In this document: in pieces, positions 20,173 to 59,720 of the stretch
Numbering within the stretch: the first letter of the stretch is position 1
Layout of the letters: every line of letters starts with the position of its first letter
Source: Tunturibacter gelidoferens
Lineage (GTDB): Bacteria > Acidobacteriota > Terriglobia > Terriglobales > Acidobacteriaceae
DNA: 64,000 nucleotides
NCBI RefSeq assembly: GCF_040358255.1
Contig: NZ_CP132937.1
Span: forward strand, 1 to 64,000
Reading direction: 5' to 3'
Notes under the pieces: model-generated
The model's input: only the letters and a program-made list of their open reading frames with translations
What the model was told of the DNA's origin: nothing
Database searches by the model: none
Program-made: the position numbers and the translations under genes

Positions 20173-20415
20173 ATGTGCTGCTGCTCTAAACAGAACAAAG
20201 ATATGAAAGATCCAGCTAGTGGGATGACAATTGAGCCGTCGAAGCGGCTCGCAACTGATCCGGTCTGCGGCATGGAGGTTGATCCTGCCAGCGCAGCAAC
20301 CGCGGAGCACAAGGGAACGAAGTTTTATTTCTGCTGCCAAGGCTGCGCGATGAAGTTTCGAGCTGAACCAGACAACTTCCACAGCAGGCAGGAGGCCCCC
20401 CTATGCAAGTGCTAG
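20173..20415 (+). CDS. YHS-domain small protein
   Basis: The start at 20173 follows GAGGAGG. The 80-residue protein begins MCCCSKQ and then holds one YHS domain ([12 protein letters not shown] ... [16 protein letters not shown]), which binds heavy metal through its paired cysteines. The end overlaps the CopA-type ATPase start by 13 nt, so the two are co-translated, and this protein may deliver copper to the pump. Many related ATPases carry a YHS domain fused at their N-terminus; here it is a separate protein. Confidence 0.88.
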
Positions 20416-22652: not shown

Positions 22653-22706
22653 CCGTCCCGAAGGGACTTACTCACTCATTCATTCTTGAAGCATGAAGCG
22701 ACCTCG

Positions 22707-23084
22707 ATGGGATCCGATAGTTTTGTTGATAACAAACTTCTTTGCGGCGTCACGCACGATCTAAAGGAAGAGCTCTTCCATTTCTCGCACTACAAGCCTT
22801 GGCAGTCGGGCTTATATTCCAAGCTCCTCGTCAAAGCAGACGATCTTCGCGTCCTTCTTATCGCTCTGAACACCAGGACGGAGATGAAGGCACATCACAC
22901 GGATGGGACGACCACAATCCATGTTCTGCAGGGTGTTCTGAGCTTGCGCGTACACGACAAACAGCAGCAGCTGCTCGTTGGACAAATACTTACGCTCGCA
23001 CCTGGGATCTCGCACGACATCGAAGCCCGCGAAGACTCCGCTTTGCTGTTGACGATCTCGTGGCCAAGCAGCGAAACACTATGA
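22707..23084 (+). CDS. Small cupin-domain protein
   Basis: A ~125-residue single-domain cupin. The two conserved cupin motifs are visible: EMKAHHTDGTTTIHVLQGVL (motif 1, with three His) and LAPGISHDIEAREDSALLLTI (motif 2, with His). The start is uncertain: an in-frame TTG at 22686 gives a product 7 residues longer, and neither has a strong ribosome site. It could bind a metal ion through its His residues. It follows the Cu-ATPase by 54 nt in the same direction. Confidence 0.8.
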   Translation: MGSDSFVDNKLLCGVTHDLKEELFHFSHYKPWQSGLYSKLLVKADDLRVLLIALNTRTEMKAHHTDGTTTIHVLQGVLSLRVHDKQQQLLVGQILTLAPGISHDIEAREDSALLLTISWPSSETL

Positions 23085-23110
23085 TCGTTGGCCCATAGAG
23101 GCTACGGCTC

Positions 23111-23280
23111 GTGAGAATCTCATCTTTCGCGTTCTTCTACAACGCTCTTGGAGTGCCGCTTGGGGTGAGTGCTCTGTATCCTTTTTTGGATTGCCACTGA
23201 ATCCCATGATTACGGCGGCAGCCATGAGCTTCAGTTCAGTCTCAGTCATCGGGAACCTCGCTAAGGCTGTGGGCAGCTAA
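23111..23280 (+). pseudogene. Remnant of a copper P-type ATPase C-terminus
   Basis: This short stretch reads [20 protein letters not shown] in one frame and, after one frame change in the run of six Ts near 23183-23188, [20 protein letters not shown] followed by GNLAKAVGS and a stop. The intact ATPase 500 nt upstream ends with the parallel segments [19 protein letters not shown] and [20 protein letters not shown], so this is the last transmembrane hairpin of a second, divergent copper ATPase. No other part of it is visible. It marks a deletion or recombination between two ATPase genes. Confidence 0.8.
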
Positions 23281-23289
23281 ACTTTGATC

Positions 23290-23949
23290 ATGTCTAGAGC
23301 TACTTATTGGATGCGGCGATCCAAGCGCCATGTGATTCTCGCTTCCGGAGCAATAGCGCTCACCTGCGTGGCGTATGCTGCGACGCCTCCGCCAGACGTT
23401 CGCCATCGCTTGAGCATGGCCAGTGCCTATGCTGGTCTGATCTTTCTTGCAGTATCGCTATGGATTGGGCCGTGGAATGTCCTGCGACGACGGCCTAACC
23501 CCGTCAGCTTCGATCTGCGCCGGGATATAGGTATTTGGACGGGCATCCTCGCCATCCTGCACACAATAATTGGCTTGACTGTCCATCTTCGGGGACGAAT
23601 GTGGATGTACTTTTTCAAGAGCCTACATCCATTGAAACTGCAAAATACGCAATTCGGCTTCGCCAACCTTGTCGGACTGGGTGCTGCACTGCTCTTCTTG
23701 ATGCTCTTGCTGATCTCCAATGATATTTCACTTCGCGCACTGGGGACTCGTCGCTGGAAGTCGCTCCAGAGATGGACCTACGCAGCTTTGGCGCTAACAG
23801 CGGCTCACGGTATCGCTTATCAACCGGTCGAAAAGCGCCGCCTTCCCTGGGTTTTTGTCTTCACAGCGGTCATAATCGCAGTATCCGCTACTCAGGTAGT
23901 TGGTTTTACCCAGGTTCAAAGGCGAATGGGTCACGGTCAGGGAGATTAG
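23290..23949 (+). CDS. Ferric-reductase-like membrane haem protein (MsrQ/YedZ type)
   Basis: A ~219-residue protein with about six transmembrane helices. The sequence pattern fits the ferric-reductase-like domain: GIWTGILAILHTIIGLTVHLRG with two spaced His on one helix, then RRWKSLQRWTYAALALTAAHGI with a His on the following one, able to hold haem b. Proteins of this family (MsrQ, YedZ) feed electrons to periplasmic reductases. The ATG at 23290 is used; a TTG two codons upstream is possible. It lies between the ATPase remnant and the second ILRI-type secreted protein. No MsrP-type partner gene is visible in the window. Confidence 0.8.
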   Translation: MSRATYWMRRSKRHVILASGAIALTCVAYAATPPPDVRHRLSMASAYAGLIFLAVSLWIGPWNVLRRRPNPVSFDLRRDIGIWTGILAILHTIIGLTVHLRGRMWMYFFKSLHPLKLQNTQFGFANLVGLGAALLFLMLLLISNDISLRALGTRRWKSLQRWTYAALALTAAHGIAYQPVEKRRLPWVFVFTAVIIAVSATQVVGFTQVQRRMGHGQGD

Positions 23950-24014
23950 AGACTGGCGTACTCACCGAATCACTGTTGCTCCGTTCGTCAGGGAGACGTA
24001 GTCTAATAACTGAA

Positions 24015-24386
24015 ATGCGTGCTTTTCGCCAATTCGGTGTACTAGTCCTGCTATTGGTAACCTGCCTGGCGCCAGCAATGGCCTGCATGATTCCCGACGC
24101 GCAAATGAGCACTCAAGAGCGTGCCTGCTGCCGCATGATGAAGAACCAATGTGGGCAGATGGAGATGCCGGCATCGCATGGCTGCTGCCAAAAGACTCCG
24201 CCGAGCGTGCACGATAACGCGCTGGATACAAAAGTAGTAGCGTTTCATCCAGTGGTAGTTCCTATTATCTGGTTGGCTGCCTCCGAGCTGGTGAATCCCA
24301 CCTCTGGTGTCACCGGATGGGTTGAACACCCCGACTACTCACCTCCCACGTCCCCACCTGCGACAATTTCCATCCTAAGAATCTAG
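24015..24386 (+). CDS. Secreted Cys/Met-rich small protein ending in ILRI
   Basis: A 123-residue protein with a signal peptide (FGVLVLLLVTCLAPAMA). The mature part has CMIPDAQMS, ACCRMMKNQCGQMEM and SHGCCQKTP, three Cys/Met clusters that look like soft-metal sites, then a Val/Pro-rich part and the end SPPATISILRI. The protein at 14847-15311 has the same order and ending. It stands about 100 nt before the cusC-type gene, so it probably belongs to the copper export operon. The frame is open further 5' but has no signal peptide there. Confidence 0.72.
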   Translation: MRAFRQFGVLVLLLVTCLAPAMACMIPDAQMSTQERACCRMMKNQCGQMEMPASHGCCQKTPPSVHDNALDTKVVAFHPVVVPIIWLAASELVNPTSGVTGWVEHPDYSPPTSPPATISILRI

Positions 24387-24485
24387 TTAGCTCCACTCTC
24401 GCACTCTACTTTTGCCGAGCGCGCGCACGTTTGTCTGCGTGTCTTGGCGAATGCTTTGAACTGCATTTGAGATTGGAGCTTCCGT

Positions 24486-25748
24486 ATGAACGTGGTCTCT
24501 TTGTTGACCTCCACGCTTGTGCTGGCCACTGCATTGTCTGCCCCTGGGCAGACGCCGGTGGTAAGCGCGCCCACGCCCCTGTCCCAGCTTCTCGCTGAGG
24601 CTAAGGCAAACAACCCACAAATCTCCGCAGCCGATCACGGCGTACGAGCGGCCCGGCAAATGGCACCGCAGGTGACTACATTGCCGGACCCGAAATTTAC
24701 CTACCAGCAGTTGAGTGTGGGAAGTCCGAAGCCGTTCGCGGGATACACCAACAGCGACTTTGCTTATATCGGCGTTGGAGCATCACAGGAATTGCCCTAT
24801 CCAGGAAAGTTGCAGGCGCGCGGGGCGGTAGCCGAGCGCAGCGCCGACACGAAGCAAGCCGAGGTTGAAGTCACGAAAACCAGCATCGCCGATGCGGTAA
24901 AGGCCGACTATCTCCAACTGGCCTATCTGCAACAGACTCTCGGAATCCTGCGGCAAAATGAGGCCGTGCTTGACCAGCTCATTCAGGATGCAACGGCGCA
25001 CTATCAGGTCGGACAGGGGATGCAGCAGGATGTCCTGCAGGCCCAGGTGAATCGAACCAAGATCGTGAAAGAGATCACGATGAACCATCAACAGATGGAG
25101 CAGATGCAGGCACACCTCAAAGGTTTGCTCAGTCGGGACCAAGCGTCGCCGGACATTGTTACGGAAGATTTGATCGAAAGCCCGCTGAAGCGCTCCTCCG
25201 CCGAACTTCTTGCAATGGTCCGGCAAAGCAACCCTCAGATCCAGGTCGATGCGAGTTCCGTTCGCAAGCAGGATGCGCAATTAGCGTCTGCGAAACGCGA
25301 AGGGAAACCGGACTTTGAACTTGGTTATATGTACCAGAACACCGATCGCAAGTATCGGGACTACTACGTGTTCACCTTCGATGTGCGCTTTCCTCGCAAG
25401 ACGCGGGTGAATGCGGAGATCGCAGAGGCCACGGAGAGGCGCTCCGAATCACAACAGACCCTCAATGCGCATCTGCAACAGCAACTCGCCGAGGTGCAGG
25501 AAGGGTATGTAAAAGCAACCAGCGATGAAGAGTTGTTGAAGGAATATCGGGAAGGGCTGGTCCCACAATCGGATGCAGCGTATCGGGCGACACTGAACGC
25601 CTATGCCTCCAATCGTGAGCAGTTCATTCATGTCCTCTCATACTTCACCGACCTTTTGAGTCTGAAACTCGAATATGCGCAGACCCTCGTGGATCACGAA
25701 GCTGCTTTGGCCCATCTCGAAACTCTGACTGGAGCGACCCTGCGATGA
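24486..25748 (+). CDS. cusC: CusC/CzcC-like outer-membrane factor of the Cu/Ag RND pump
   Basis: A 420-residue TolC-family protein with a signal peptide (LTSTLVLATALSAPGQ). Helical hairpin segments are seen, such as LPDPKFTYQQLSVGSP, HYQVGQGMQQDVLQAQVNRTKI and NAYASNREQFIHVLSYFTDLL. It overlaps the adaptor gene by 4 nt (ATGA), making it the first gene of a complete outer-membrane/adaptor/pump operon. It forms the exit channel for Cu(I)/Ag(I). The symbol is given by position and pump type; the channel alone could also be called czcC-like. Confidence 0.9.
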   Translation: MNVVSLLTSTLVLATALSAPGQTPVVSAPTPLSQLLAEAKANNPQISAADHGVRAARQMAPQVTTLPDPKFTYQQLSVGSPKPFAGYTNSDFAYIGVGASQELPYPGKLQARGAVAERSADTKQAEVEVTKTSIADAVKADYLQLAYLQQTLGILRQNEAVLDQLIQDATAHYQVGQGMQQDVLQAQVNRTKIVKEITMNHQQMEQMQAHLKGLLSRDQASPDIVTEDLIESPLKRSSAELLAMVRQSNPQIQVDASSVRKQDAQLASAKREGKPDFELGYMYQNTDRKYRDYYVFTFDVRFPRKTRVNAEIAEATERRSESQQTLNAHLQQQLAEVQEGYVKATSDEELLKEYREGLVPQSDAAYRATLNAYASNREQFIHVLSYFTDLLSLKLEYAQTLVDHEAALAHLETLTGATLR

Positions 25749-27334
25749 ACAAATATATCTGGAGGACTTCACTCGTTTGGATCATCGTCCTGGCAGCGAT
25801 CGCAGGGATATGGGCCTACCGCACTCACGCCATCAAGCTGCCAACGGCAACGAAGACGCCGATGTCAGGGGAAATGCAGCCTGTAGCCTCTGGTCCTCCT
25901 GCTGGTGCGAATGAGCCAAAACCATCGATGCCAGATACGAAGATGGATGCTCAGCTCGTTCCGATACAACTCACACCCGAGAGAATGCAGAGCATCGGTG
26001 TGCAGACTGGCACAGTTGAATACAAACAACTGAGCGATGACATACGCGCGACTGGCACGGTTGACATCAACGAACGTCTTCTTTCTTACGTGCAGGTGCG
26101 CTTTGCGGGCTATATCCGCAAAGTCTTTGCCAATGCCACGTATCAATATGTGAGAAAAGGCGAGCCACTCTTCACCATCTACAGCCCTGACCTCGTGGCG
26201 ACACAACAAGAGTATCTGCTCGCGCGGCAGAACCAGAAGACCATGAGCGGAAGCACAATCGATGGGGTTGCCGATGGTGCGGCCACTCTTTCGACCGCAG
26301 CGGAACAGCGATTAAAGCAGTGGGATATACCTGACAGTGAAATCGCAAAGCTGAAGGAAACTGGCAAACCGGTTACCGACCTTACCATCAACTCACCGGT
26401 TGAGGGATACATTACGGAGCGAAGTGCTCTGCCCAATATGTATGCCGAACCTTCGACCAAGCTCTATACCGTTGCGGATCTGTCGCGTGTGTGGGTGTAT
26501 GCCCAAGTTTTCCAGGACGATGTGGGCCGAATCAAACCTGGCGATACGGCGCAGATTACCGTCGACTCTTATCCGGGCCGCACGTTCTCCGGTCAAATCG
26601 AAGACATTCTGCCTCAAGTAGATATGGCGACGCGCACAGTTCGTGTGCGTCTGGTGATGGCGAATCCTGGACTCAAACTGAAACCGGGTATGTTTGTGAA
26701 CGTCGACCTCAAAACCAGTCTGGGGCGTCAGCTCGTTGTGCCGGCTTCGGCGGTCTTCCAATCCGGCACACGGCAATTGGTGTTCCTCGATCACGGCAAC
26801 GGCAGTCTTGAGCCAAAAGAGATCACTGTTGGTCCCCGCGTCGGCGATGATTTCGTCGTTCTGAAGGGGTTGAAAGCACACGAATCCATCGTGACATCAG
26901 CCAGCTTCCTCATTGATTCAGAAAGCCAGTTGCAGGCTGCGGCAGGTTCCTTCGTACCACCTCCACCGGGTGCCGGGGGCAACGCTCCATCAGCGAATGC
27001 GCCCTCTGCGGCACAGGCGAATCTCGATTTCACTACTGATCCCAATCCGCCGCAAAAGGGCAGCAATGTCTTTCGGGTGAAGCTCACCAGTGCAGATGGA
27101 ACTCCTACAACCGCGGCTGATGTTACGGTCACGTTTTATATGGCTGGTATGCCGGCGATGGGGATGGCGGCAATGACCACGAAGACCAAGCTTAACGACA
27201 AAGGCAATGGCATGTATGAAGGAAGCGGTTCGCTAGGCTCCGGGGGCACATATCAAGTCACCATCTCCGCTCAGAAGAACGGTCAAGTGATCGCTACGAA
27301 GCAGTTACGCGTGAACGCAACAGGAGGCATGTAA
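25745..27334 (+). CDS. cusB: CusB-type periplasmic adaptor with a C-terminal YtkA-like domain
   Basis: A 529-residue membrane-fusion protein. An N-terminal helix (TSLVWIIVLAAIAGIWAY) anchors it; Met residues follow (MSGEMQP, MPDTKMDAQ) where CusB binds Cu(I). The adaptor core runs about 80-410 (TGTVDINERLLSYVQVRFAG, LTINSPVEGYITERSAL, VWVYAQVFQDDVGRIKPGD, LKPGMFVNVDL). Past residue ~425 there is an extra beta domain (KGSNVFRVKLTSADGTPTTA ... VTVTFYMAGMPAMGMAAM) of the YtkA/FixH kind with a Met cluster, not present in E. coli CusB, which is ~407 residues long. It overlaps the pump gene by one base. Confidence 0.93.
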   Translation: MNKYIWRTSLVWIIVLAAIAGIWAYRTHAIKLPTATKTPMSGEMQPVASGPPAGANEPKPSMPDTKMDAQLVPIQLTPERMQSIGVQTGTVEYKQLSDDIRATGTVDINERLLSYVQVRFAGYIRKVFANATYQYVRKGEPLFTIYSPDLVATQQEYLLARQNQKTMSGSTIDGVADGAATLSTAAEQRLKQWDIPDSEIAKLKETGKPVTDLTINSPVEGYITERSALPNMYAEPSTKLYTVADLSRVWVYAQVFQDDVGRIKPGDTAQITVDSYPGRTFSGQIEDILPQVDMATRTVRVRLVMANPGLKLKPGMFVNVDLKTSLGRQLVVPASAVFQSGTRQLVFLDHGNGSLEPKEITVGPRVGDDFVVLKGLKAHESIVTSASFLIDSESQLQAAAGSFVPPPPGAGGNAPSANAPSAAQANLDFTTDPNPPQKGSNVFRVKLTSADGTPTTAADVTVTFYMAGMPAMGMAAMTTKTKLNDKGNGMYEGSGSLGSGGTYQVTISAQKNGQVIATKQLRVNATGGM

Positions 27335-30300
27335 TGCTTTCCAGAATAATTGACGTTTGCGCACGCAATCGCTTCCTGGTCTTCACCGCAGTCTTGCTGC
27401 TCACACTTGCTGGCATCTGGTCGTTGCAGCATGTACCGCTGGACGCACTGCCGGACATCTCGGACGTGCAGGTGATCGTTCATACGGGCTGGGCGGGCGA
27501 GCCCCCCGATGTCATCGAAGACCAGGTGACTTACCCCATCGTCACAAGCCTGTTGGCTGCCCCGCATGTCAAGGCTGTCCGCGCGCAGACCATGTTAGGG
27601 GACTCTTACGTTTATGTAGTGTTTGAGGACGGCACGGACCTCTACTGGGCGCGTTCGCGGGTCATCGAATATCTGCAACAGATCAGCGGGCGTCTCCCGG
27701 AGAACGTGCATCCTTCGATTGGCCCCGATGCGACGGGCGCAGGTTGGGTGTATGAGTACGCCATCGTCGACAAGAGCGGCAAACACAGTCTTGCCGACTT
27801 GCGCAGCTTGCAGGACTGGCATCTGCGCTATGCGCTGGAGACCGTGCCGGGAGTTGCTGAGGTCGCTAGCATTGGTGGCTTCGTCCGGCAGTATCAGGTG
27901 CAGCTCGATCCCAACAAGTTACGCGCCTATGGCATTCCGCTGTCTACCGTCATCGACAAAGTAAAGATGAGCACGAATGAAGTTGGCGGTCGCGTTCTTA
28001 ACTTGAGCGGCGCGGACTACATGATCCGCGGTCTGGGCTATCTGCGCTCCCTGGATGATCTCGCTTCGGTTGCCGTCGGCAGCAAGAATGGAACCCCTGT
28101 CCTGATGCGCGATTTGGGAACGGTGACCTTCGGCCCTGATATCCGCGAAGGAGTTGCCGAGTGGAATGGAGACGGAGAAACGGTCGGCGGGATCATTGTC
28201 ATGCGCCAAGGCATGAATGCGTTGAACGTCATCAACGGAGTGAAGCAGAAGCTGCGTGAGATTGCGCCCTCGCTGCCACCCGGCGTCCAGATCATGACGG
28301 GATACGATCGTTCCGATTTGATCGATGCGTCGATCAAAACCCTCCAGCGCGATCTGCTCGAAGAAGCCATTATCGTCAGCCTGGTAATTATTGTCTTCCT
28401 GTTTCATTTCCGCTCTGCGCTCATTGCAATTCTTGCCTTGCCTATCGCGGTGTTGATGTCTTTCATCCCGATGTACTGGCTGGGAGTGAGTTCAAACATC
28501 ATGTCTCTGGGCGGCATCGCCTTAGCGGTTGGCGTGCTCGTCGATGCCTCGATTGTGATGGTCGAAAATGGCTATCGCCATCTATCGGAGCGGCAGGAAA
28601 ACGATGCCAGCCCAGTATCGGAACCCGAGCGGCACACCATTCTTATCAACGCAGCCAAGCAGGTTGGCCCAGCGCTCTTTTTTTCACTGATTATCATCGT
28701 CGTATCGTTTATGCCGGTCTTCCTGCTCGAAGCGCAGGAAGGACGCATGTTTCGCCCACTGGCATGGACCAAGACCCTTGCAGTCGGCTCTTCCTCCATC
28801 CTTGCCATCACACTCGTGCCGGTACTGATGGTGATGCTGATTCGGGGCCGTTTGCGGCCAGAACGTGCCAATCCAATTTCGCGTGTCACGCAGGCGATTT
28901 ACCTGCCAATCCTGAAATTCTGCCTGCGACATCGCTGGCTCACCATTGTGGTCAATCTGATCTTCCTGCTGGTCACCTTTCCACTTGCATCCCGTTTGGG
29001 CAGCCAGTTCATGCCGGCTCTCTTTGAAGGCTCCGCCCTCTATATGCCGACTGCTCTTCCCGGCATCTCCATTGAACAGGCGAAGGGTCTCCTGCAGCAG
29101 CAGGACCGGATTCTTCGCAGCTTCCCGGAAGTGGCCAGTGTGTTTGGTGCGGTCGGTAGATCAGACAGCGCAACCGATAATGCACCACTGGATATGTATG
29201 ACACCACACTGATGCTCAAGCCGCGGGAGGAATGGCCCGCTGGGATGACCTACGAAAAGCTTATTCAGCAGATGGATGAGAAGCTTCAGTTTCCGGGGCT
29301 CTCGAATACCTGGACAAGTCCGGTCGAAAACCGTCTGGACATGGAGCTAACCGGCATCAAGACACCGTTGGGCATGAAGGTGCAGGGGCCAAATGTGGAT
29401 GGCATTCAGCAGTTGGCTTCGCAACTTCAGACTGTTCTCTCAGGACTGCCGCAGGTGCGATCTGTCTTCGCTGAAAAGGTCGCGCAAGGTTTCTACGTTA
29501 ATGTCGAGGTCAAACGAGAGGAGGCGGCCCGCTACGGTCTCACGATCGCGGATGTACAGACAGCGGTTTCATCCGGCATCGGTGGACAGAATATTGCAGA
29601 AAATATCGAAGGGCGCGAGCGTTATCCGATCAATGTTCGCTACCAGAGAGACTTCCGCGACAATGTTGAAAAGATGCGTGGGGTGCTGATCGGGACGCCG
29701 TCCGGCGCGCAGATCCCGTTAGGTCAGGTAGCGAAGATCTCCTTCACGCACGGCCCGGCCATGATCCGGGACGAAGACGGTGCGCTGACGGGATACATCT
29801 ACATTGATCTCAAGAACTCCGACTACGGTGGCTTCGTTGCACAGGCAAACAAACTCATTCACAGTAAACTCGCGTTGCCAGCAAACTACACCTTTCAGTG
29901 GTCTGGAGAATATGAACTCGAACTCCGCGCCAAACAACGTCTGCAACTGATTCTTCCGGTAGTCTTTTTTGTGATTTTCATGCTGCTGTACCTGGTCTTT
30001 CACTCAGTCGCTGAAGCCCTTGTTCTTATCTTTCCAACCATCTATGCGATGAGTGGAGGGTTACTCCTGCAATGGTTTCTCCACTACAACTTCAGCGTCG
30101 CAGTGGCGGTCGGTTACATTGCCCTCTTTGGCATCGCAGTGGAGACCGGCGTCGTCATGGTGGTTTATCTCCATGAAGCGCTCGAACATAAGCTGCAATC
30201 CGGGAAGACGTTGACGAATGCCGATATCGAGGAGGCGGCCATTGAAGGCGCTGTTCATCGTTTGAGGCCAAAGCTCATGACAGTCTGCGCCGTTCTCGCC

Positions 30301-30531
30301 AGCCTGGTTCCGATCCTCTGGGAATCCGGCATTGGCTCCGATGTGATGAAGCCGATTGCAGCACCTATCGTCGGCGGCATGATTACTTCCACCATCCACG
30401 TCCTGATTTTGGTTCCCGTCTTCTTCGTCATGATGAAGGAACGAGCATTACGGAAAGGACGCCTCCACGCGAAGAACCAAATCACCGATCAAACTCAACC
30501 CCTTCAACCAGTAATTCAAGGAGAACTCTAA
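27334..30531 (+). CDS. cusA: CusA-type heavy-metal RND pump
   Basis: A 1065-residue inner-membrane pump of the heavy-metal (HME) RND group. It opens with RNRFLVFTAVLLLTLAGIW and DALPDISDVQVIVHTGWAGE, the group's hallmark; the proton-relay helix is GGIALAVGVLVDASIVMVEN. The Cu(I)/Ag(I) Met sites of E. coli CusA have counterparts: YMPTALPGIS, PLDMYDTTLMLKP and RLDMELTGIKTPLGMKV. Twelve helices and two large periplasmic loops fit the length. It is the third gene of a fully coupled cusCBA operon and its stop overlaps the next start by one base. Confidence 0.96.
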   Translation: MLSRIIDVCARNRFLVFTAVLLLTLAGIWSLQHVPLDALPDISDVQVIVHTGWAGEPPDVIEDQVTYPIVTSLLAAPHVKAVRAQTMLGDSYVYVVFEDGTDLYWARSRVIEYLQQISGRLPENVHPSIGPDATGAGWVYEYAIVDKSGKHSLADLRSLQDWHLRYALETVPGVAEVASIGGFVRQYQVQLDPNKLRAYGIPLSTVIDKVKMSTNEVGGRVLNLSGADYMIRGLGYLRSLDDLASVAVGSKNGTPVLMRDLGTVTFGPDIREGVAEWNGDGETVGGIIVMRQGMNALNVINGVKQKLREIAPSLPPGVQIMTGYDRSDLIDASIKTLQRDLLEEAIIVSLVIIVFLFHFRSALIAILALPIAVLMSFIPMYWLGVSSNIMSLGGIALAVGVLVDASIVMVENGYRHLSERQENDASPVSEPERHTILINAAKQVGPALFFSLIIIVVSFMPVFLLEAQEGRMFRPLAWTKTLAVGSSSILAITLVPVLMVMLIRGRLRPERANPISRVTQAIYLPILKFCLRHRWLTIVVNLIFLLVTFPLASRLGSQFMPALFEGSALYMPTALPGISIEQAKGLLQQQDRILRSFPEVASVFGAVGRSDSATDNAPLDMYDTTLMLKPREEWPAGMTYEKLIQQMDEKLQFPGLSNTWTSPVENRLDMELTGIKTPLGMKVQGPNVDGIQQLASQLQTVLSGLPQVRSVFAEKVAQGFYVNVEVKREEAARYGLTIADVQTAVSSGIGGQNIAENIEGRERYPINVRYQRDFRDNVEKMRGVLIGTPSGAQIPLGQVAKISFTHGPAMIRDEDGALTGYIYIDLKNSDYGGFVAQANKLIHSKLALPANYTFQWSGEYELELRAKQRLQLILPVVFFVIFMLLYLVFHSVAEALVLIFPTIYAMSGGLLLQWFLHYNFSVAVAVGYIALFGIAVETGVVMVVYLHEALEHKLQSGKTLTNADIEEAAIEGAVHRLRPKLMTVCAVLASLVPILWESGIGSDVMKPIAAPIVGGMITSTIHVLILVPVFFVMMKERALRKGRLHAKNQITDQTQPLQPVIQGEL

Positions 30532-45536: not shown

Positions 45537-48500
45537 TTGAAAGTGACCTTATCGATTTCGAGTTTCATCGAGCGCTGGCAGCAGTCTGCCGCGGCTGAAC
45601 GAGCCAACTTTCAGCTCTTCCTTTCCGAGCTCTGCGACTTCCTCGACGTCCCGCGCCCTGATCCCACCCGCCCTGAAGACCACCTCAACACCTACGTCTT
45701 CGAAAAACCCGTCACTTTCTACAATCTCGACGACACAACCTCTCAAGGCCGCATCGACCTCTACCGTCGAGGCTATTTCGTACTCGAGGCCAAACAGGGC
45801 AGCAACCCGCCGGAGCTGCAAACCAATCACGAGACTGGTGATCTTCTCCTTACTCCTCCTCCGCCGCGACCGGCCCGCCAGCGCCGCGGCACCGCCGTGC
45901 GCGGTACGCACGGCTGGGATGAAGCCATGCTCAATGCCTACAACCAGGCTGAGCGTTACGCTAAAGCCCTTCCCGCTATCGAAGGCTGGCCACCGTTTCT
46001 CGTCACAGTCGATGTAGGCCATTCCATCGAGCTCTTCGCCGACTTTTCAGTCACCGGCAAAGCCTATCTGCCTTTCCCTGACGCGCGCAGTTATCGCATC
46101 CTACTCAGCGACCTCTCCAACCCGGATATCCGCGAACGTCTTCGCTGCGTCTGGTTGGACCCGCACGCGCTTAACCCTGCTCGTCATGCCGCCAAAGTCA
46201 CACGTGAAGTTGCCGCCAAGCTCGCCGTCCTCGCCCGCACCCTCGAGCAGAGCTACTCGCCCAAGCAGGTCGCCGAGTTCCTCACCCGCTGCATCTTCAC
46301 CTCCTTCGCAGAAGATGTAAAGCTCCTTCCCGAAAAAAGCTGGTTCAAGCTTCTCTGCGATCTTCGTGATTCGGACAATGTAGCCGTTTTCCCCGAGATG
46401 GCCAGTTCCCTCTGGGACACTATGAACGCTGGCGGCTTCTCCCCAATCCTCATGGCCCATATTCTCAAGTTCAACGGCGGCCTCTTCGAATCCACCGAAG
46501 CTTTGCCCCTCACCAACGATCAGCTCGGCTTGCTGATCGATGCCGCCGACTCCAACTGGAGAGATGTCGAGCCCGCGATCTTCGGCACACTTCTTGAGCG
46601 TGCTCTCGATGCGGAAGAGCGCCATCAACTCGGCGCTCACTATACCCCGCGCGCTTACGTCGAGCGACTCGTCATCCCAACCATCGTCGAGCCTCTCCGC
46701 GCCGACTGGGCCGACGTCATCGCGGCCGTCTCCGAGCTCGTCGCCTCAGGTCATGCTGCCGACGCCATCGAGATCCTTCGCGACTTCCACCGCCGCCTCT
46801 GCAACACTCGTGTGCTCGATCCCGCCTGTGGATCGGGCAACTTCCTATACGTCGCGCTCGAACACCTCAAGCGCCTCGAAGGGGAAATCCTCGAATCTCT
46901 CGCTACGCTTGGCGAAACCCAACAGGCTCTCGAACACACCGGGCTCACCGTCAACCCACATCAGCTTCTCGGCATCGACATCAACCCGCGCGCCACCGCC
47001 GTCGCCGATCTCGTCCTTTGGATCGGCTACCTCCAGTGGCACTTCCGCACCCGCGGTGAGTCCAACCCGCCCATCCCGGTGATTAGCAACTTCCACAACA
47101 TCGAATGTCGCGACGCCCTCATGACCTGGAGCAGTCGAGTTCTGGCAACAGACCGAGCGGGGAGTCCAAGAGTCCAGTGGGACGGTAAGAGTTGGATCAC
47201 AGATTCCCTAACCGGAAGAAGAATCAAGGACCCAAGCGCAACAAAGCCTGTTTATCGATATCTCAATCCTCAGGAAGCAACTTGGCCAGAGGCGGAGTTC
47301 ATCATTGGGAATCCCCCGTACATCGGCAAGGGTGAGCGGATGCGTAACGATCTCGGTGACGGTTATGTCGAGGCCCTACAGCAGGTGTTCGACGGCCGAG
47401 TTTCAATTGGTAGTGACTTGGTCATGTTCTGGTGGTGGAAGGCAGCCGCGTTCATCCGAACAGGTCGGTGCCGCTCGATGGGCTTAATCACAACCAAGAG
47501 TCTTAGCCAGACGATGAATCGTCGAGTAGTTGCGCCATTTCTGGAGAGCTGCTCATTTTCTTTCGCGATCCCGAATCATCCATGGATAGATGCGACAAGC
47601 GGCGCTCAAGTCAGAGTGGCACTAACTGCGCTCACAAAAGGCAAAGGCGACGGAACTCTCACCCTCGTGTTGGAGGAAACACCTCTAGAAGAAGGTGAAT
47701 TCGAAGTCACCTTCGATATCAAACGCGGGAAGATTCACGATGACCTTCGGATAGGACCGAACGTATCCTCGGCGACATCGCTTGAAGCAAATGAAAATCT
47801 CTCGAGCATGGGTCTTATTCTTGGCAGCCAGGGATTTGTACTTGATTCGGAGAAAGCCGACAGATTGACGCATCTCAGTCCAGAGTCGGGCCTGATCTTC
47901 CCATTGGTGAACGGGCAAAATGTCAACGCTAATTTCAGAGACAGATTCGTAATCGATACAGTCGGCTGGACGCAACACGATCTGCGGGCTCAGGCACCTG
48001 AAATTTATCAGCATCTACTTGAAACTGTAGCGATTGACCGTCAGACTAATCGGTCCGCAACTCTACGAGAGCATTGGTGGCTGCCCAGGAGATCTAACGA
48101 ACAGCTTCGTAACTCGATCCGCGGACTCGCGCGCTACATCGTCACAGTTGAAACAAGCAAGTTTCGAATCTTTAGCTTTTTGGGCGCAGACACCCGCCCG
48201 GAACACAAGCTGGTGATCTTCGGATCGGACGACGCTTATGTATTGGGTGTCCTTTCCAGCATCGTACACACCCAATGGGCCTCTGCTGCGGGCGGACGAA
48301 ATGGTGTCGGCGACGATCTCGTTTATTCAAAAACGACTTGCTTCGAGCCCTTTCCATTTCCTGCTGCGACCGAAGCCCAGCAGCAAGCGATCCGCGACGA
48401 AGCCGAGCGCCTCGATGCCCACCGCAAGTGCCAGCAGCAACTCCATCCCAACCTCACCCTGACGGACATGTACAACATCCTCGAAAAGCTCCGCGCCAAC

Positions 48501-48989
48501 GAGGAGCTTACTCCGCAGGAACACGCCCTCTACGACGTTGGCCTCATTGGCATTCTCCGAGAGCTGCACGATGAGCTCGATCGCGCTGTCTTCGACGCCT
48601 ACGGCTGGCCCCACGAACTCACTACTGACGGAATCCTCGCCCGCGTCGTCGCCCTCAATGCCGAGCGCCACGCAGAGGAGACCTCCGGCCTCATCCGATG
48701 GCTCCGCCCCGAATTCCAGACCCCAACTACCATTCCCGTCGCGCGCACCCTCGAAGGTTTTGTCGAGGAATCTCCGGCCGCTGCCGCCCGCCGCAAACAG
48801 CCCTGGCCCGGTACCCTCCCCGAGCAGGTCCGCGCCATCAAGGAGGTTCTACGCGGCGCACCCGCACAGACTCCGCAGCAGATTGCCTCAGCATTCCGCC
48901 CAGCCAGCCGTACCCGCATAAGCGAAATACTCACTACACTCGTTGCACTGGGACAAGCGCGGACCACTGGCGGAGGTTACTCGCTTTGA
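45537..48989 (+). CDS. Type IIG-like restriction nuclease-methylase fusion
   Basis: A 1150-residue protein. Residues ~70-90 (GRIDLYRRGYFVLEAKQGS) fit a PD-(D/E)xK nuclease site with D74, E84 and K86. The methylase part has motif I LDPACGSGNFLYVAL (D428) and motif IV NPPYIG (N592), an adenine-specific gamma/MmeI-like arrangement. A GAHYTPRAYVERL helix precedes motif I. The C-terminal ~300 residues probably hold the target-recognition domain, and the last 40 look like a winged helix. Start TTG at 45537 or GTG at 45543. It would cut and modify the same site; it lacks a separate methylase partner. Confidence 0.9.
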   Translation: MKVTLSISSFIERWQQSAAAERANFQLFLSELCDFLDVPRPDPTRPEDHLNTYVFEKPVTFYNLDDTTSQGRIDLYRRGYFVLEAKQGSNPPELQTNHETGDLLLTPPPPRPARQRRGTAVRGTHGWDEAMLNAYNQAERYAKALPAIEGWPPFLVTVDVGHSIELFADFSVTGKAYLPFPDARSYRILLSDLSNPDIRERLRCVWLDPHALNPARHAAKVTREVAAKLAVLARTLEQSYSPKQVAEFLTRCIFTSFAEDVKLLPEKSWFKLLCDLRDSDNVAVFPEMASSLWDTMNAGGFSPILMAHILKFNGGLFESTEALPLTNDQLGLLIDAADSNWRDVEPAIFGTLLERALDAEERHQLGAHYTPRAYVERLVIPTIVEPLRADWADVIAAVSELVASGHAADAIEILRDFHRRLCNTRVLDPACGSGNFLYVALEHLKRLEGEILESLATLGETQQALEHTGLTVNPHQLLGIDINPRATAVADLVLWIGYLQWHFRTRGESNPPIPVISNFHNIECRDALMTWSSRVLATDRAGSPRVQWDGKSWITDSLTGRRIKDPSATKPVYRYLNPQEATWPEAEFIIGNPPYIGKGERMRNDLGDGYVEALQQVFDGRVSIGSDLVMFWWWKAAAFIRTGRCRSMGLITTKSLSQTMNRRVVAPFLESCSFSFAIPNHPWIDATSGAQVRVALTALTKGKGDGTLTLVLEETPLEEGEFEVTFDIKRGKIHDDLRIGPNVSSATSLEANENLSSMGLILGSQGFVLDSEKADRLTHLSPESGLIFPLVNGQNVNANFRDRFVIDTVGWTQHDLRAQAPEIYQHLLETVAIDRQTNRSATLREHWWLPRRSNEQLRNSIRGLARYIVTVETSKFRIFSFLGADTRPEHKLVIFGSDDAYVLGVLSSIVHTQWASAAGGRNGVGDDLVYSKTTCFEPFPFPAATEAQQQAIRDEAERLDAHRKCQQQLHPNLTLTDMYNILEKLRANEELTPQEHALYDVGLIGILRELHDELDRAVFDAYGWPHELTTDGILARVVALNAERHAEETSGLIRWLRPEFQTPTTIPVARTLEGFVEESPAAAARRKQPWPGTLPEQVRAIKEVLRGAPAQTPQQIASAFRPASRTRISEILTTLVALGQARTTGGGYSL

Positions 48990-54493: not shown

Positions 54494-54504
54494 TCGTCGG
54501 CTCC

Positions 54505-54535
54505 GTGGGTGAGGCGAGAACATCGCCTCATCCAC
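54505..54535 (+). terminator. Strong hairpin after ssb, possible terminator
   Basis: A 12-bp stem, GTGGGTGAGGCG against CGCCTCATCCAC (one G-T pair) with a 7-nt loop AGAACAT, follows the ssb stop by 11 nt. There is no U-run, so termination would need a different signal; it might instead protect the 3' end or attenuate. Confidence 0.5.
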
Positions 54536-54588
54536 CAATCTCTAATACTCCTGGTGAGCAATCGCCTATCATCGCTATAGAGGCAAAT

Positions 54589-55338
54589 ATGCACGAACTC
54601 CCAGGCGCGATTCCGGATCTACAGGTTCTCCTTAGTCTGCGGGCAGAGGAGCTCGGCGGCAAGATGATCTTCCTCATGCGCAAACGCTGTGAGAATCGTG
54701 GGATTGACGGTTTTATATTCTCGAATCTCATTGATGAGCTCTGGCCTCAAAATTATCTGCCGAACTATCGGCCGCCATACGATGAGCAATTTAGGAATCA
54801 GATCAACCTTGCAATCGCAGAAGCATGGGCCTGGCTGATTGCGCAGGCTCTCCTTGTGCCCGCGCCGAATGCAGGGGGAGGTTCTGATACTCGCGTTCTC
54901 AGTCGCCGGGCTCTTCAATTCCAGAACGAGACGGACTTTGCGAGCTTTGCCGTCAGCCGGATGCTTCCAAAGGAGTGCTTACATCCCCGGCTTGCCGATA
55001 AAGTGTGGTCTGCATTTATGCGGAGCGAATTCGACGTAGCGGCGTTTCAGGCAATGAAGGCGGTGGAAGTTGCAGTACGCGATGCGTCCGGTCTTCCAAA
55101 TGACCTTCTCGGAACAAAACTTATGCGCAAGGCGTTCGATCCGGGCAACGGACCGCTGACTGACCCATTGGCGGAAGATGGAGAGAAGGAGGCGCGTTCG
55201 GCGTTGTTCGCAGGAGCCATAGGTTCCTATAAGAACCCGCATTCCCACCGCGACGTGAACCTGGCCGACCCTGCTGAAGCAGTGGAAATCATCATGCTTG
55301 CCAACCATTTGCTCCGGATTGTCGACGCAAGAAAATAG
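54589..55338 (+). CDS. TIGR02391-family defence-associated protein
   Basis: A 249-residue protein starting at 54589 after AGAGGCAAAT. The C-terminal half has the TIGR02391 pattern: FDVAAFQAMKAVEVAVRDASG, LMRKAFDPGNGPLTDP, then ALFAGAIGSYKNPHSHRDV and EIIMLANHLLRIVD, where the NPHSHR segment is conserved. The N-terminal half is helical (VLLSLRAEELGGKMIFLMRK). The family is often found in phage-defence settings, but its activity is not established to my knowledge. It ends 31 nt before a convergent gene. Confidence 0.8.
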   Translation: MHELPGAIPDLQVLLSLRAEELGGKMIFLMRKRCENRGIDGFIFSNLIDELWPQNYLPNYRPPYDEQFRNQINLAIAEAWAWLIAQALLVPAPNAGGGSDTRVLSRRALQFQNETDFASFAVSRMLPKECLHPRLADKVWSAFMRSEFDVAAFQAMKAVEVAVRDASGLPNDLLGTKLMRKAFDPGNGPLTDPLAEDGEKEARSALFAGAIGSYKNPHSHRDVNLADPAEAVEIIMLANHLLRIVDARK

Positions 55339-55369: not shown

Positions 55370-58021
55370 CTATGGAATATAGGTTCTCACAAACGATGGA
55401 CTGTACCCGTGCTCGCGCTCGAAGTCCCACAGCTTGAGCGAGGCGTCATTGATCTCGGTGATGACAACCAAGTGATCCCCGAGGCCTGGAAGCCATGCGA
55501 GATCACCTTCAGCGAGCTTTCGTTTCGAGGTCAGCAGTGCTCTTGATGGTGCTGTGAGCACGTCGAGTAGCTTTTCACCGTGTCGCGCATTTCGGTTCAG
55601 CCATGCTTGTGCCTCGGCCTTTGCGATCGCCGACCTCGAGATTGAGTTCTCAATCCCTGCCCAAAGTTGATCGACACTTTCTGATTCGACGACGAGCGGC
55701 ATCAGCCGGGTCAGGTATCCATTTCCGTGCAACTGGAACGTGTGTTCCTCGGCGCCAAGATCCCAGCGCGGCCGAACCGGAGCCCGGAAATCAAACCCAC
55801 AAACCCAGGCCAGCCACGTCAGCAGGACATAGAGATCATCGAGCTCAGCGTAGGATTCGATTCCGGATTGTGCTCGCATGGCTAGACCCTTGTCTTTCGC
55901 AAAGAGGTATGGCATCGACGCTTCAAAAAGCCGTGTGAGCCATGTTTTATCGAGGAGCTTTAGCCCCCTGGCGGACCACCTGGCACTGTTCTCGATCCGG
56001 CGGAGTTCGCGAAGAAGGGCTATGACGGCCGTCAGCTGCATGATGACGGTCTTTGCAGCGGCAGAAACGCTGGACTCCGAGGAAGCATCTTTCTTTGCTG
56101 CCTCGACAGATACCGCCTTCTGGCGGTTGATCATGCGGTTCATGAGTGTCTTTGCCTTGGATGTGACTGCCGCTGCGATCACCTTATCGGATAATTCTTG
56201 CCGGGGTTCATTTGGTTCAACGGGGTTCCCTTCGGCTCCATTTCCGTTTCCGTCTTCGGGCCCTCCTGTGCCGTCAGCCTTCTGCTCTACAGAGACCAGT
56301 GGCGCGACGTAAAGTTTGTGAATGAGCGCGTCGATGAGCTCCACCAGGTCGCCATGCGACAACATCCGCGCCTTCTTCCGCTTCTCACGCGAGGCAGGAA
56401 AAGCCATTTCCAAAGATTCCGGTCGAGAAATCTCCCGCTCCTTGCCGTCATTCTTATGGGCGCGTGAATGCCCTTGCCCGTCAGTACCGCTCAGGAGCTT
56501 TTCGGTACTCTCCGAAAAAATCACCTTGCTGACTATGGCAATCAAACTTGAGAGATCCGCGGAACCGCTATCGAGCGCCCCGATGGCATCACGGACTTGC
56601 CGTTGCGTCGATGAACTCGACTGCTTCTTTACGATTGCCGGGTGGTGAACCAGAACTCGGGCAACAAATCCTCCATTGCGATAAAGTTCAAGAGAACGGA
56701 CCGTCCGCGGCGTAGTAGAGAAATGAAGGATGAGACGTTGGTCTTCACGGACAGTCGACAGGAGCCCAACGGGAACGAGATCCTTCAACGGCTCTTCAAT
56801 CTGCACTGACCAGGAGTCGGAGTCAGTCAACTCTTGAACGGAGTTCGCCTTGGCGAACGAGAGGTCAATGATGATCTCTGGCTCCGCTTCAGAAGCGATT
56901 CCAACCAGTAATATTTCGTGTTGATCCCCTTCTACCTGATGTTTCTCCGCCGTACGCGAAACGACGATCTCCAATGCCTCTCGTGAAAGCTCGTGAAGAT
57001 CAAACAGTTTGAGAAAACCCATTTCTGTCGCGGTGCCGCGAGCCAGCGCCCCGCGGACAAGCACAACTGCTTCCACATTGGGTGCGCGAAGTCCCCATCC
57101 CGGCGCACTGGGATTGGCGCTGCCACTGAGCCATGCTGCATCTTCTGCCCGCTCGCCTTCGAAGTAGAGAGCCTTTGCGTGAAGATAATGATGGGGTGAG
57201 GAATTCAGAACCTGCGACGCGTCCACAAAGGCAACTTTGGGGTCTTGGGTTAAGTTCGGCAGGTAGACGGTCGATGGATCGACGCCTACTTTTATGTCGG
57301 CGAGGGGCCAGACGCTGCGTAGACGTATGAGAAACTCAAGTTCGCTGTCGAAGAAGGCTCCTACAACTGTAATGCGGTGTGGTACAAAGCGAATCGAGTT
57401 CCGCAGAGCGCTAAACAAAGAACTCTGCTGGTCCGACTGGGCGAGGAATCGAGGCGCAGTTTCTTCGTTTATCGCCATGGCGCTTTCCGGAATGAAGCGG
57501 CTCAGCTCGAGGGCGAAGTCGATCAGCTCACGAGGCGTATGGGCGCCTTCGTTCTGTATCCAACGCGAGAGCTCAATCCACGCGGCTCGAATGAACTGCG
57601 CATCCTTCGGGTCAGCATTTGAGAATTCGACGAGGCCTGTGACCTCCCGATTGATGCCGAACCCGGAAAGGGTAAGATTGTGGCTGCCGACAGAAATAGC
57701 AGCTTTTTTAGGCCCCAGGAGAAACACAATCTTCGGATGGAACGCTCCCTTCGTGTGCATCGGAATCAGCGTGTATTCGAATCCGGCATGGCGAGGTCGG
57801 CTGGCTTCTGAATGCCAGGCAGAAGCACATTGGGCAGCGTCCATTAGGACAAAGTTTCGCCGGCAGTTCTTCGCCTGCAGACGGCGGAGCACAAACTCTT
57901 CATAGAATGGCAAGTTTGCATTGAATGTGGTGATGAGCGAGGCTTCGAACCCTCCTCGATCGATCAGCTCGCTGAGAGACACCTGTGCCTGTATGGGCGA
58001 ATGAGAGGGGGGCTCAGGCAT
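55370..58021 (-). CDS. Large phospholipase-D-fold protein of a two-gene defence module
   Basis: An 883-residue protein; the ATG at 58021 lies inside the end of the upstream gene, an 8-nt overlap. Residues ~15-130 hold one PLD-like half with HPK at 95-97 and GSHN at 112-115 (FHPKIVFLLG, ISVGSHNLTLSGFG); a second half has HAK at 281-283 and SGSANPS at 299-305 (LHAKALYFEG, WLSGSANPSAPGW). Two H-x-K...S/N-type sites form the active site of PLD-family nucleases and lipases. The middle ~350-560 has beta segments and a basic Ser-rich part; the end is helical with aromatic motifs. It could be a nuclease. A named system could not be recognised. Confidence 0.85.
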   Translation of the reverse strand: MPEPPSHSPIQAQVSLSELIDRGGFEASLITTFNANLPFYEEFVLRRLQAKNCRRNFVLMDAAQCASAWHSEASRPRHAGFEYTLIPMHTKGAFHPKIVFLLGPKKAAISVGSHNLTLSGFGINREVTGLVEFSNADPKDAQFIRAAWIELSRWIQNEGAHTPRELIDFALELSRFIPESAMAINEETAPRFLAQSDQQSSLFSALRNSIRFVPHRITVVGAFFDSELEFLIRLRSVWPLADIKVGVDPSTVYLPNLTQDPKVAFVDASQVLNSSPHHYLHAKALYFEGERAEDAAWLSGSANPSAPGWGLRAPNVEAVVLVRGALARGTATEMGFLKLFDLHELSREALEIVVSRTAEKHQVEGDQHEILLVGIASEAEPEIIIDLSFAKANSVQELTDSDSWSVQIEEPLKDLVPVGLLSTVREDQRLILHFSTTPRTVRSLELYRNGGFVARVLVHHPAIVKKQSSSSTQRQVRDAIGALDSGSADLSSLIAIVSKVIFSESTEKLLSGTDGQGHSRAHKNDGKEREISRPESLEMAFPASREKRKKARMLSHGDLVELIDALIHKLYVAPLVSVEQKADGTGGPEDGNGNGAEGNPVEPNEPRQELSDKVIAAAVTSKAKTLMNRMINRQKAVSVEAAKKDASSESSVSAAAKTVIMQLTAVIALLRELRRIENSARWSARGLKLLDKTWLTRLFEASMPYLFAKDKGLAMRAQSGIESYAELDDLYVLLTWLAWVCGFDFRAPVRPRWDLGAEEHTFQLHGNGYLTRLMPLVVESESVDQLWAGIENSISRSAIAKAEAQAWLNRNARHGEKLLDVLTAPSRALLTSKRKLAEGDLAWLPGLGDHLVVITEINDASLKLWDFEREHGYSPSFVRTYIP

Positions 58022-59720
58022 CAGTACCCTCCAGGATCGAACGGCCGAAAGGAGTGATCTCAAGTCCGTGAGATGCGTCGGTAACCGAGGATCCAGAGGG
58101 CGCCAATGCGCCGAGATCAGTGAGTATCTGTAGCGCCTGCCAGATTCGCGGCAAGGTGGACACCGGATGCGGGATTGTTCCGAGCGTCTCCAGACCCGAC
58201 TCGGAGGGTTGCAGATGGAAGCTGCACTGTCGTGTTTGACGTAGCTTTCGAAGAGCTACAGAAAGATGTGTGTTCAGACACCAGACAATCAAATCCTCAA
58301 TTACTTCAGTCAAGGAAAGACTGCGCCAGTGTTCGACGCGTTTTACAAAGGAAACGAGATGGATCGGATAGTTTTCAAGATCGGAAGTCCTTAACAGCAA
58401 GTCGCCATAACCGGCCGGAAACGAGGACTCGTGGCTTACCAAAAGAGCAAGCACCCTGAGCGCAGAGACTAGCGTTTGAGGATACGTCTCGGCCGTCGGA
58501 GGATCCGAGACCAGGCCCGCTGCCAGATTGATCTCATGGTTTTCGTCTTGCCAGCGCTCAACGGGAGGATGTGTCTTCCGCACGTATTCGACAAGGTCGG
58601 AAAACGTGGCGCCAGGTCCTAATGCCGGGCCGCTTCCCAAGCTCAACAAGTCGGTGAGGCTCTCTGATAGGGCCGGTTGACGCGACAAGTAAGCCGCGAA
58701 CTTCTCGACTGTGCGAAAGGTCTGTCCGAGCCTCGCTTCGACCTCAAGAGCCTGGAGAGCAGATGAAAACACGCACAGGCAAGCCATCGAGAGTTGATCA
58801 TTTCGTTCGTAGATGGACCAAAGGGTGCGCGTCTTTACGAGATCAGCCGGGAGTTGCCATGGTCGATCTTCGAATAGAGTTCCGCTGTACACGGCAGCGC
58901 GGAAGCTATCCTCGCTAATTCGAATTGGACTCTCTTTTGAAAGGGCGCCCGCGAGGTGCAAGAGCAGGCGCAGCGAATCGCGGCGAAAGACTGGATCATA
59001 ATCTCCAAGTGCTGTTCGCTCTGCATAGAACGGCGTTCTTACGAAGAAGAGATCCATCAACTGTCTGTGCTCTTTTTCATGGTGGGAAGCTCCGCATATA
59101 CAGAACTGCACCAAGTCATCGAGATCCTGCAGGGTAACGAGATCCTCGACAACGGTCTGCCAGAACTGATCGGCGCCCTGTAACTCGTCCAAGGTCTTTG
59201 CCAGTGGTGTTCCGCCATTGGGCGTGTATGTCACCCATGGACCACGCGATGTATCCAGGATGCGAAGCTCTGCTAATTGGCCCATATAATACTGACCAAG
59301 TCCTCCGAGCCGATTCTGAAAGTATCTGTCATTCGAGTCATCCGAGCGGGTAGCGTAGGTTGAGAGTCGAAGCGGCTCGCCGCCCTCAAGCCTCGTTAAT
59401 GCGGGCACCAGTCGGAGCCGGCCGATCATCGACTGACCGTGATGCTCATCTTTAAGCTGGCGTGCATGCCGCTCGGAGATCAAGGTGAGCAGACAATCCG
59501 CGCGGCGATAAAGATCGACGTACAGGTCAAGAGAGTCACCCTTATAGCGCAGATCGAGCGAACGGACTATCCATGGGTAGAGTGAATAATAACGGGCTCG
59601 ATCCGTAACATTCGTGATGCCAGGCAGTAACTGCGCATAGATCAATGTGCATGGTGATTGTGTCCCGAGATGATCGAGGCCGGAAATCGGCGTTGGTGGT
59701 TTAACCCAACCTATCTGCAT
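58014..59720 (-). CDS. Partner protein of the phospholipase-D-fold gene, unknown family
   Basis: A 568-residue soluble protein. It opens with QIGWVKPPTPISGLDHLGTQ and later has ARYYSLYPWIVRSLDLRY, an aromatic-rich N-terminal region that must be conserved to be so regular; the rest is helical, with LSACLC..SSALQALEVEA-like amphipathic segments and a winged-helix-like end (LQILTDLGALAPSG, GLEITPFGRSIL). No membrane segment or known catalytic motif is seen. Its end overlaps the PLD gene by 8 nt, so the two are translated together in this order. A sensor or recognition role for the pair is a reasonable inference. Confidence 0.8.
   Translation of the reverse strand: MQIGWVKPPTPISGLDHLGTQSPCTLIYAQLLPGITNVTDRARYYSLYPWIVRSLDLRYKGDSLDLYVDLYRRADCLLTLISERHARQLKDEHHGQSMIGRLRLVPALTRLEGGEPLRLSTYATRSDDSNDRYFQNRLGGLGQYYMGQLAELRILDTSRGPWVTYTPNGGTPLAKTLDELQGADQFWQTVVEDLVTLQDLDDLVQFCICGASHHEKEHRQLMDLFFVRTPFYAERTALGDYDPVFRRDSLRLLLHLAGALSKESPIRISEDSFRAAVYSGTLFEDRPWQLPADLVKTRTLWSIYERNDQLSMACLCVFSSALQALEVEARLGQTFRTVEKFAAYLSRQPALSESLTDLLSLGSGPALGPGATFSDLVEYVRKTHPPVERWQDENHEINLAAGLVSDPPTAETYPQTLVSALRVLALLVSHESSFPAGYGDLLLRTSDLENYPIHLVSFVKRVEHWRSLSLTEVIEDLIVWCLNTHLSVALRKLRQTRQCSFHLQPSESGLETLGTIPHPVSTLPRIWQALQILTDLGALAPSGSSVTDASHGLEITPFGRSILEGTDA

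Follow-up and report, generated by a model that had tools for sequence, protein, structure and literature searches.

PLD-superfamily nucleases of defence systems are usually paired with a helicase or an ATPase that finds the target, and PLD enzymes act through a covalent phospho-histidine intermediate. The closest described relatives of the gene pair presented here are found in Azaca, which was reportedly set out by Millman et al. in 2022 as ZacA-ZacB-ZacC and is represented in PADLOC by families PDLC03828-30. Azaca contains a PLD-like domain (PMC10952713), its ZacC component is an SF1/SF2 helicase (PMC12278908) and its mechanism has been given as unknown (PMC12926258). In the reference Azaca loci that we compared (L045-L050), ZacA has about 400-440 aa and ZacB about 600-690 aa, with a ZacC helicase of 1050-1175 aa located downstream. 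Single-chain endonucleases in which a PLD domain is fused to a winged helix (PLD-wH) appear to sense N6-methyladenine and show Dam-dependent toxicity (PMC11037411), so that a winged helix may serve a PLD nuclease as a reader.

The window, i.e., the whole stretch of 64,000 nucleotides analyzed here, lies on a 128,565-base contig of a two-contig genome of 5.58 Mb and is most likely part of a plasmid, in agreement with the two-contig layout and with the ParB, ssb and ArdC-like genes. An initial annotation had described in it an 883-residue protein with two PLD half-sites (here B) and a co-oriented partner of 568 residues (here A) that overlaps it by 8 nt, the two being placed between a TIGR02391 gene and a SIR2/SMC operon. 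Both reading frames and both neighbours were found as described (Table 1). Gene B starts with the ATG at 58021, the raw reading frame reaching back to a TTG at 58063 (897 aa). Both flanking units are on the (+) strand and the pair is on the (-) strand, therefore A-B forms a separate transcription unit outside either operon. Membership of B in the TIGR02391 or the SIR2 operon was ruled out by the opposite strands.

Table 1. Features of the A-B gene pair and of its flanking genes, in window coordinates.
Feature	Position	Strand	Basis or remark
TIGR02391/Hypoth_ymh gene	54505-55338	(+)	first cargo gene past ssb
Gene B, 883-aa ZacB-like PLD-superfamily protein	55370..58021	(-)	ORF, PADLOC ZacB
B residues 612-823, C-terminal helical region past the end of the shorter Azaca ZacB	55553..56188	(-)	AF2, ZacB lengths
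B residues 504-607, low-confidence, probably disordered linker	56201..56512	(-)	AF2 pLDDT mostly <50
B residues 7-363, predicted single-chain two-half-site PLD core	56933..58003	(-)	AF2, Foldseek, VIA
B half-site 2, H281-A-K283 ... G300-S-A-N303, then N315, E317	57113..57181	(-)	conservation, 81 homologues
B half-site 1, H95-P-K97 ... G112-S-H-N115, then E126	57677..57739	(-)	conservation, 81 homologues
Overlap of 8 nt, A stop / B start (ATGCCTGA)	58014..58021	(-)	ORF ends
GGAGGG, probable ribosome-binding site of B, 5 nt before ATG	58027..58032	(-)	sequence reading
Gene A, 568-aa ZacA-like partner, predicted all-helical with C-terminal winged helix	58014..59720	(-)	ORF, PADLOC, AF2
A residues 470-566, long helix and predicted winged-helix domain	58023..58313	(-)	AF2 secondary structure, weak HA2_N
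A residues 14-50, signature GLDHLG...LLPGITNVTDRARYY..YPW, stretch common to ZacA	59571..59681	(-)	conservation, hhalign
Operon of SIR2-domain protein (556 aa), 196-aa protein and SMC-like ATPase (699 aa)	60061-64403	(+)	

Both half-sites of B are complete and under strong constraint, and the conservation of their motifs goes well past chance. Among 81 homologues, H95, N115, E126, H281, K283, G300, S301, N315 and E317 are invariant and K97, S113 and N303 each vary once, in line with the two PLD half-sites originally read in this protein. The HKD motif lacks its Asp (0/81 homologues have it at site 1 and 5/81 have an Asp at site 2). The motif is thus HKN-like, as in Tdp1, and B stands outside the HKD subgroup with respect to the Asp of HxK(x)4D. 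Pfam PLDc_2 matches the first half of B only, slightly below cut-off, and neither A nor B has a match in NCBIfam.

The AlphaFold2 model of B, built with 60 homologues, has a confident core at residues ~11-390 and a mean pLDDT of 81 overall. The top Foldseek matches of the model are to Tdp1 (E 1e-8), and VIA-align scores two-motif PLD enzymes at Z 20-21.5 over residues 7-363, for example phospholipase D 7e0m (Z 21.5, rmsd 3.9, 303 residues) and Tdp1 1mu7 (Z 20.1, rmsd 3.8, 326 residues), with PLD3/PLD4 at Z of about 18-20. The model thereby agrees with the PLD dimer-like active site for which the initial annotation had suggested checking structure models. Judged from the model, B would be a member of the PLD superfamily whose two HxK...GSxN half-sites build a single active site, and the fold match together with the conserved catalytic residues predicts that one chain of B forms a pseudo-dimer whose active site is intact. 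The matches include lipid-acting, nucleic-acid-acting and polyphosphate kinase folds, therefore the PLD fold alone leaves the substrate unfixed.

Protein A carries an N-terminal signature, GLDhLGxQ...LLPGITNVTxRARYY..YpW, which is near-invariant in 63 A homologues, and further invariant residues (H485, K492, T522, P524 and R525) are positioned close to the winged helix. Its AlphaFold2 model (pLDDT 92, pTM 0.92) has an almost all-helical body and a winged-helix-like C-terminal part, a region with a weak match to HA2_N and, in one homologue, to HTH_45 (8.6e-6). We did not find any relative of A in the PDB by sequence, either with the single protein or with a profile, and comparison of the whole-protein model with the PDB and BFVD by Foldseek and VIA-align returned unspecific helical matches only, mostly transporters, with a best Z of 4.7. 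This means that a fold match was not found and is not proof of a new fold; with no convincing match, a sensor role for A is a guess from the winged helix and the linkage to B. The candidate roles of type I specificity subunit and methyltransferase were dropped as such matches were absent.

The initial annotation had left the partner unplaced, and profile comparison now points to ZacA. ZacA was the sole PADLOC family matched by A (E 0.0086, 13.7 bits, N-terminal) and is matched by 12/19 A members, with a family best of 1.2e-6. The hhalign comparison of A with ZacA gave E 5e-7 (92.5%) / 3e-5 at the N-terminal signature, and the homology is clear only across the N-terminal ~80 residues. For B, PADLOC ranks ZacB nearest (E 1.6e-11), with matches to ZacB in 21/21 diverse B members and hhalign values of 2e-15 / 1e-10, while the hhalign controls (reversed sequence, mismatched families) reached 0.1-0.4% probability. 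By these profile comparisons B is remotely related to ZacB and A, at the level of the family, to ZacA, which makes B a predicted ZacB-type PLD protein.

No ZacC helicase adjoins B. We did not observe a ZacC match in the pair's own genome, while the control was matched in 6 genomes; the A-B unit has no helicase, and the ZacC-like helicases found beside family pairs are few and mostly those of other systems (e.g. DISARM). As the defining helicase of Azaca is absent, the pair was not filed as Azaca. When a tree is built on the PLD core, a long, fully supported branch parts the B proteins of the pair from Azaca ZacB. The idea of an undescribed module therefore survives in part: its homologues do lie in a named system, Azaca, which goes halfway against it, while the pair's B forms a separate clade without ZacC. 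Azaca itself is known, and the helicase-less ZacAB-type pair is a variant for which no description was found in the open-licence literature. A three-gene locus was also observed (L020:2281-8586), in which a DrmD/ZacC-like SF2 helicase of 837 aa comes directly after divergent A and B proteins of 630 and 708 aa, respectively, and this locus is a possible intermediate.

A is an obligate genomic partner of B, overlapping and co-evolving with it. B is located immediately downstream of 90/91 intact A genes, with overlaps of -4, -8 or -11 nt in 76/89 family members, and the pairwise distances of A and B over 81 loci give a Mantel r of 0.95, the best of 1000 permutations being 0.12. A search based on B in 200 genomes of the class found seven genomes with B, and A adjoins it in all seven. 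In one divergent member (L178:3578-7501) the order is reversed to B then A, 3 nt apart, which indicates that the association outlived a rearrangement. The co-occurrence called for in the initial annotation, and with it the proposal of a dedicated partner for the PLD protein, is thus borne out by linkage, overlap and co-evolution.

Members of the family were found in Halobacteria and in five or more bacterial phyla. Its distribution is patchy, with 7/299 class genomes carrying it and one genome of the same species lacking it, and the phyla are intermixed in the tree of B, as expected of mobile defence genes. With a six-row alignment of A as the query, 80 of 116 genome loci were kept, along with one viral contig (L056). 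The single A protein found nothing in viral contigs, and A homologues were absent from 50,697 phage records. A genes are truncated or interrupted in five loci (L086, L098, L108, L110 and L134), which suggests that the module often decays or is lost. In the L118 genome (G660:C15) another A homologue, which looks degraded, lies about 23 kb away from the first one.

The family resides in defence islands and is exchanged between phyla. The comparison of neighbourhoods used 120 proteins within three genes of the pair at 59 loci and, as controls, 120 proteins encoded far away on 20 of these contigs. PADLOC families matched at E 1e-15 numbered 292 among the neighbours and 4 among the controls. These counts are redundant, as many models match one protein, and they exaggerate how many independent proteins are involved, but the contrast is large. 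The defence-island enrichment that the initial annotation had named as support is therefore present. The neighbour matches include type I restriction subunits, Mokosh MkoA and MADS, and the Pfam families HSDR_N (5), N6_Mtase (4), Methylase_S (4), AbiEi (3), AbiEii (2) and MmeI (2). Among the plasmid copies, the pair lies inside a type I RM operon in Myroides and adjoins type I RM genes in Roseovarius and Prevotella, Qat-like genes in Roseomonas, Zorya in Polaromonas, and NACHT and CHAT genes in Streptomyces. At L118 a full DISARM DrmD helicase directly follows B.

In the plasmid studied here, DNA similarity to related plasmid backbones ends at 54501-54519, just past ssb (seven relative loci), and beyond ssb each related plasmid holds different genes, which places A-B in a variable cargo zone 3' of ssb. 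The TIGR02391 protein shows weak matches to Argonaute-associated HEPN and PD-Lambda-3_B profiles. On the other side of the pair, the SMC-like ATPase has LmuB as its best PADLOC match (1e-20), and its operon, which diverges from A-B, resembles a Lamassu-type system whose effector would be the SIR2 protein. The same plasmid encodes an MmeI-like type IIG restriction-modification fusion with four MmeI Pfam domains (45537-48989, (+)), as well as metal-resistance cargo (20403-30531, (+)) in which a heavy-metal P-type ATPase precedes an outer-membrane efflux protein and an RND pump.

We consider the A-B pair, with a probability of about 60%, to be a compact defence module of two genes that acts against phages or other mobile DNA and is kin to Azaca ZacA-ZacB, distinct from it and without ZacC. 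A and B would form a complex in which A, with its helical body, its GLDPLG..PGITNVT.RARYY signature and its winged helix, would bind DNA or a phage-derived trigger and would hold or position B. B in turn would break DNA phosphodiester bonds in a metal-free reaction, via a covalent phospho-histidine intermediate. A bolder version is offered tentatively: the pair might act as an immune complex that is self-sufficient and independent of ATP, with an undescribed sensor fold in A directly gating a one-chain PLD nuclease, and might be the widespread minimal core that gave rise to the helicase-armed Azaca-type systems or that remained after their reduction.

The strict pairing and the A-first overlapping order resemble antitoxin-toxin operons, and A has a possible DNA-binding domain, so that the pair could be an abortive-infection or toxin-antitoxin-like unit in which a toxic nuclease B is restrained by A and freed on infection. 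We regard this as doubtful, given that A is far bigger than the usual antitoxins, that A and B are both longer than their Azaca counterparts and that the reversed order at L178 speaks against an autoregulatory arrangement. The predicted winged helix at the end of A invites another reading by analogy with the single-chain PLD-wH fusions with Dam-dependent toxicity (PMC11037411), namely a modification-dependent, type IV-like restriction in which the winged helix would read modified bases, e.g. N6-methyladenine, and B would cut nearby. No methyltransferase is consistently paired with A-B, as expected of type IV; however, the larger part of A consists of an unrelated helical body, and pairs occur within type I RM operons, which themselves often methylate adenine at N6, making this reading unlikely.

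Another possibility is that B strips proteins covalently bound to DNA ends, such as relaxase, topoisomerase or terminal-protein adducts, in the manner of Tdp1, with A targeting it. The top Foldseek matches and the HKN-type motif of B agree with this, and the B profile matches Tdp1 chains weakly (E 0.006), but VIA ranks other two-motif PLD enzymes level with Tdp1, repair enzymes are unexpected among restriction genes and the related ZacB is part of a defence system; we therefore find such a role improbable. That the pair is simply Azaca with its helicase supplied elsewhere in the genome is a very unlikely explanation. It draws on the homology to ZacA and ZacB and on the helicase directly downstream in the distant member L020, and it is at odds with the lack of a ZacC match in the pair's own genome, with the rarity of ZacC-like helicases near the pair, mostly those of other systems such as DISARM, and with the fully supported branch that splits the two groups of B.

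A helicase-less defence module of this kind would permit a direct test of what the helicase contributes, as a large motor-less family combines the same type of nuclease with a dedicated partner, and it also opens a test of how a ZacA-type partner recognises invaders. The family would count for more if A proves to be a new kind of sensor. As A scores very low against the sole related profile and the Azaca helicase gene is absent, current tools would probably miss these pairs.

The PADLOC candidate PDC-M27 (A-B-C) resembles the pair in weak PDC-M27B matches at the PLD motifs of B in 18/21 members. It appears to differ in that A does not match PDC-M27A, the M27C helicase is absent and a full M27B match was not found; PDC-M27A had no match in the pair's own genome, where the control also matched nowhere, and a search of the phylum for PDC-M27 as a comparison did not find it. 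DISARM DrmC and Dpd DpdK share the PLD superfamily motif and weak profile matches to B (DrmC 2.6e-4), whereas B has two half-sites within one large chain and the A-B unit lacks DrmA/DrmB/DUF1998, a methyltransferase and a helicase. DISARM would bring DrmA, DrmB and DrmC together with a methyltransferase, and the flanks in the window are TIGR02391 and SIR2 genes.

BfiI, NgoAVII and the PLD-wH type IV candidates likewise combine a metal-independent PLD nuclease with a DNA-recognition module, here predicted as separate proteins, and differ from A-B in that the pair has no paired methyltransferase. BfiI and NgoAVII have one half-site per chain and dimerise, and the Foldseek matches of their solved structures to B (E 2e-3 to 3e-3) are far weaker than those of Tdp1. 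Tdp1 in turn is the top Foldseek match of B and has the same architecture of one chain with two half-sites and an HKN-type motif without the HKD Asp, but B is at 10-15% identity to it, has other appended domains and has a strict partner protein. Azaca shares with the pair the gene order of A then B, homology of B to ZacB across the PLD core, the N-terminal PG.T....R.(R/K)Y...PW in both A and ZacA, and the defence-island setting. The differences are that the pair has no ZacC helicase, that A is longer (495-570 aa vs 400-440 for ZacA), that B at 780-900 aa (vs 600-690 for ZacB) adds a long linker and a helical C-terminus, and that the pair's B forms a clade of its own in the tree.
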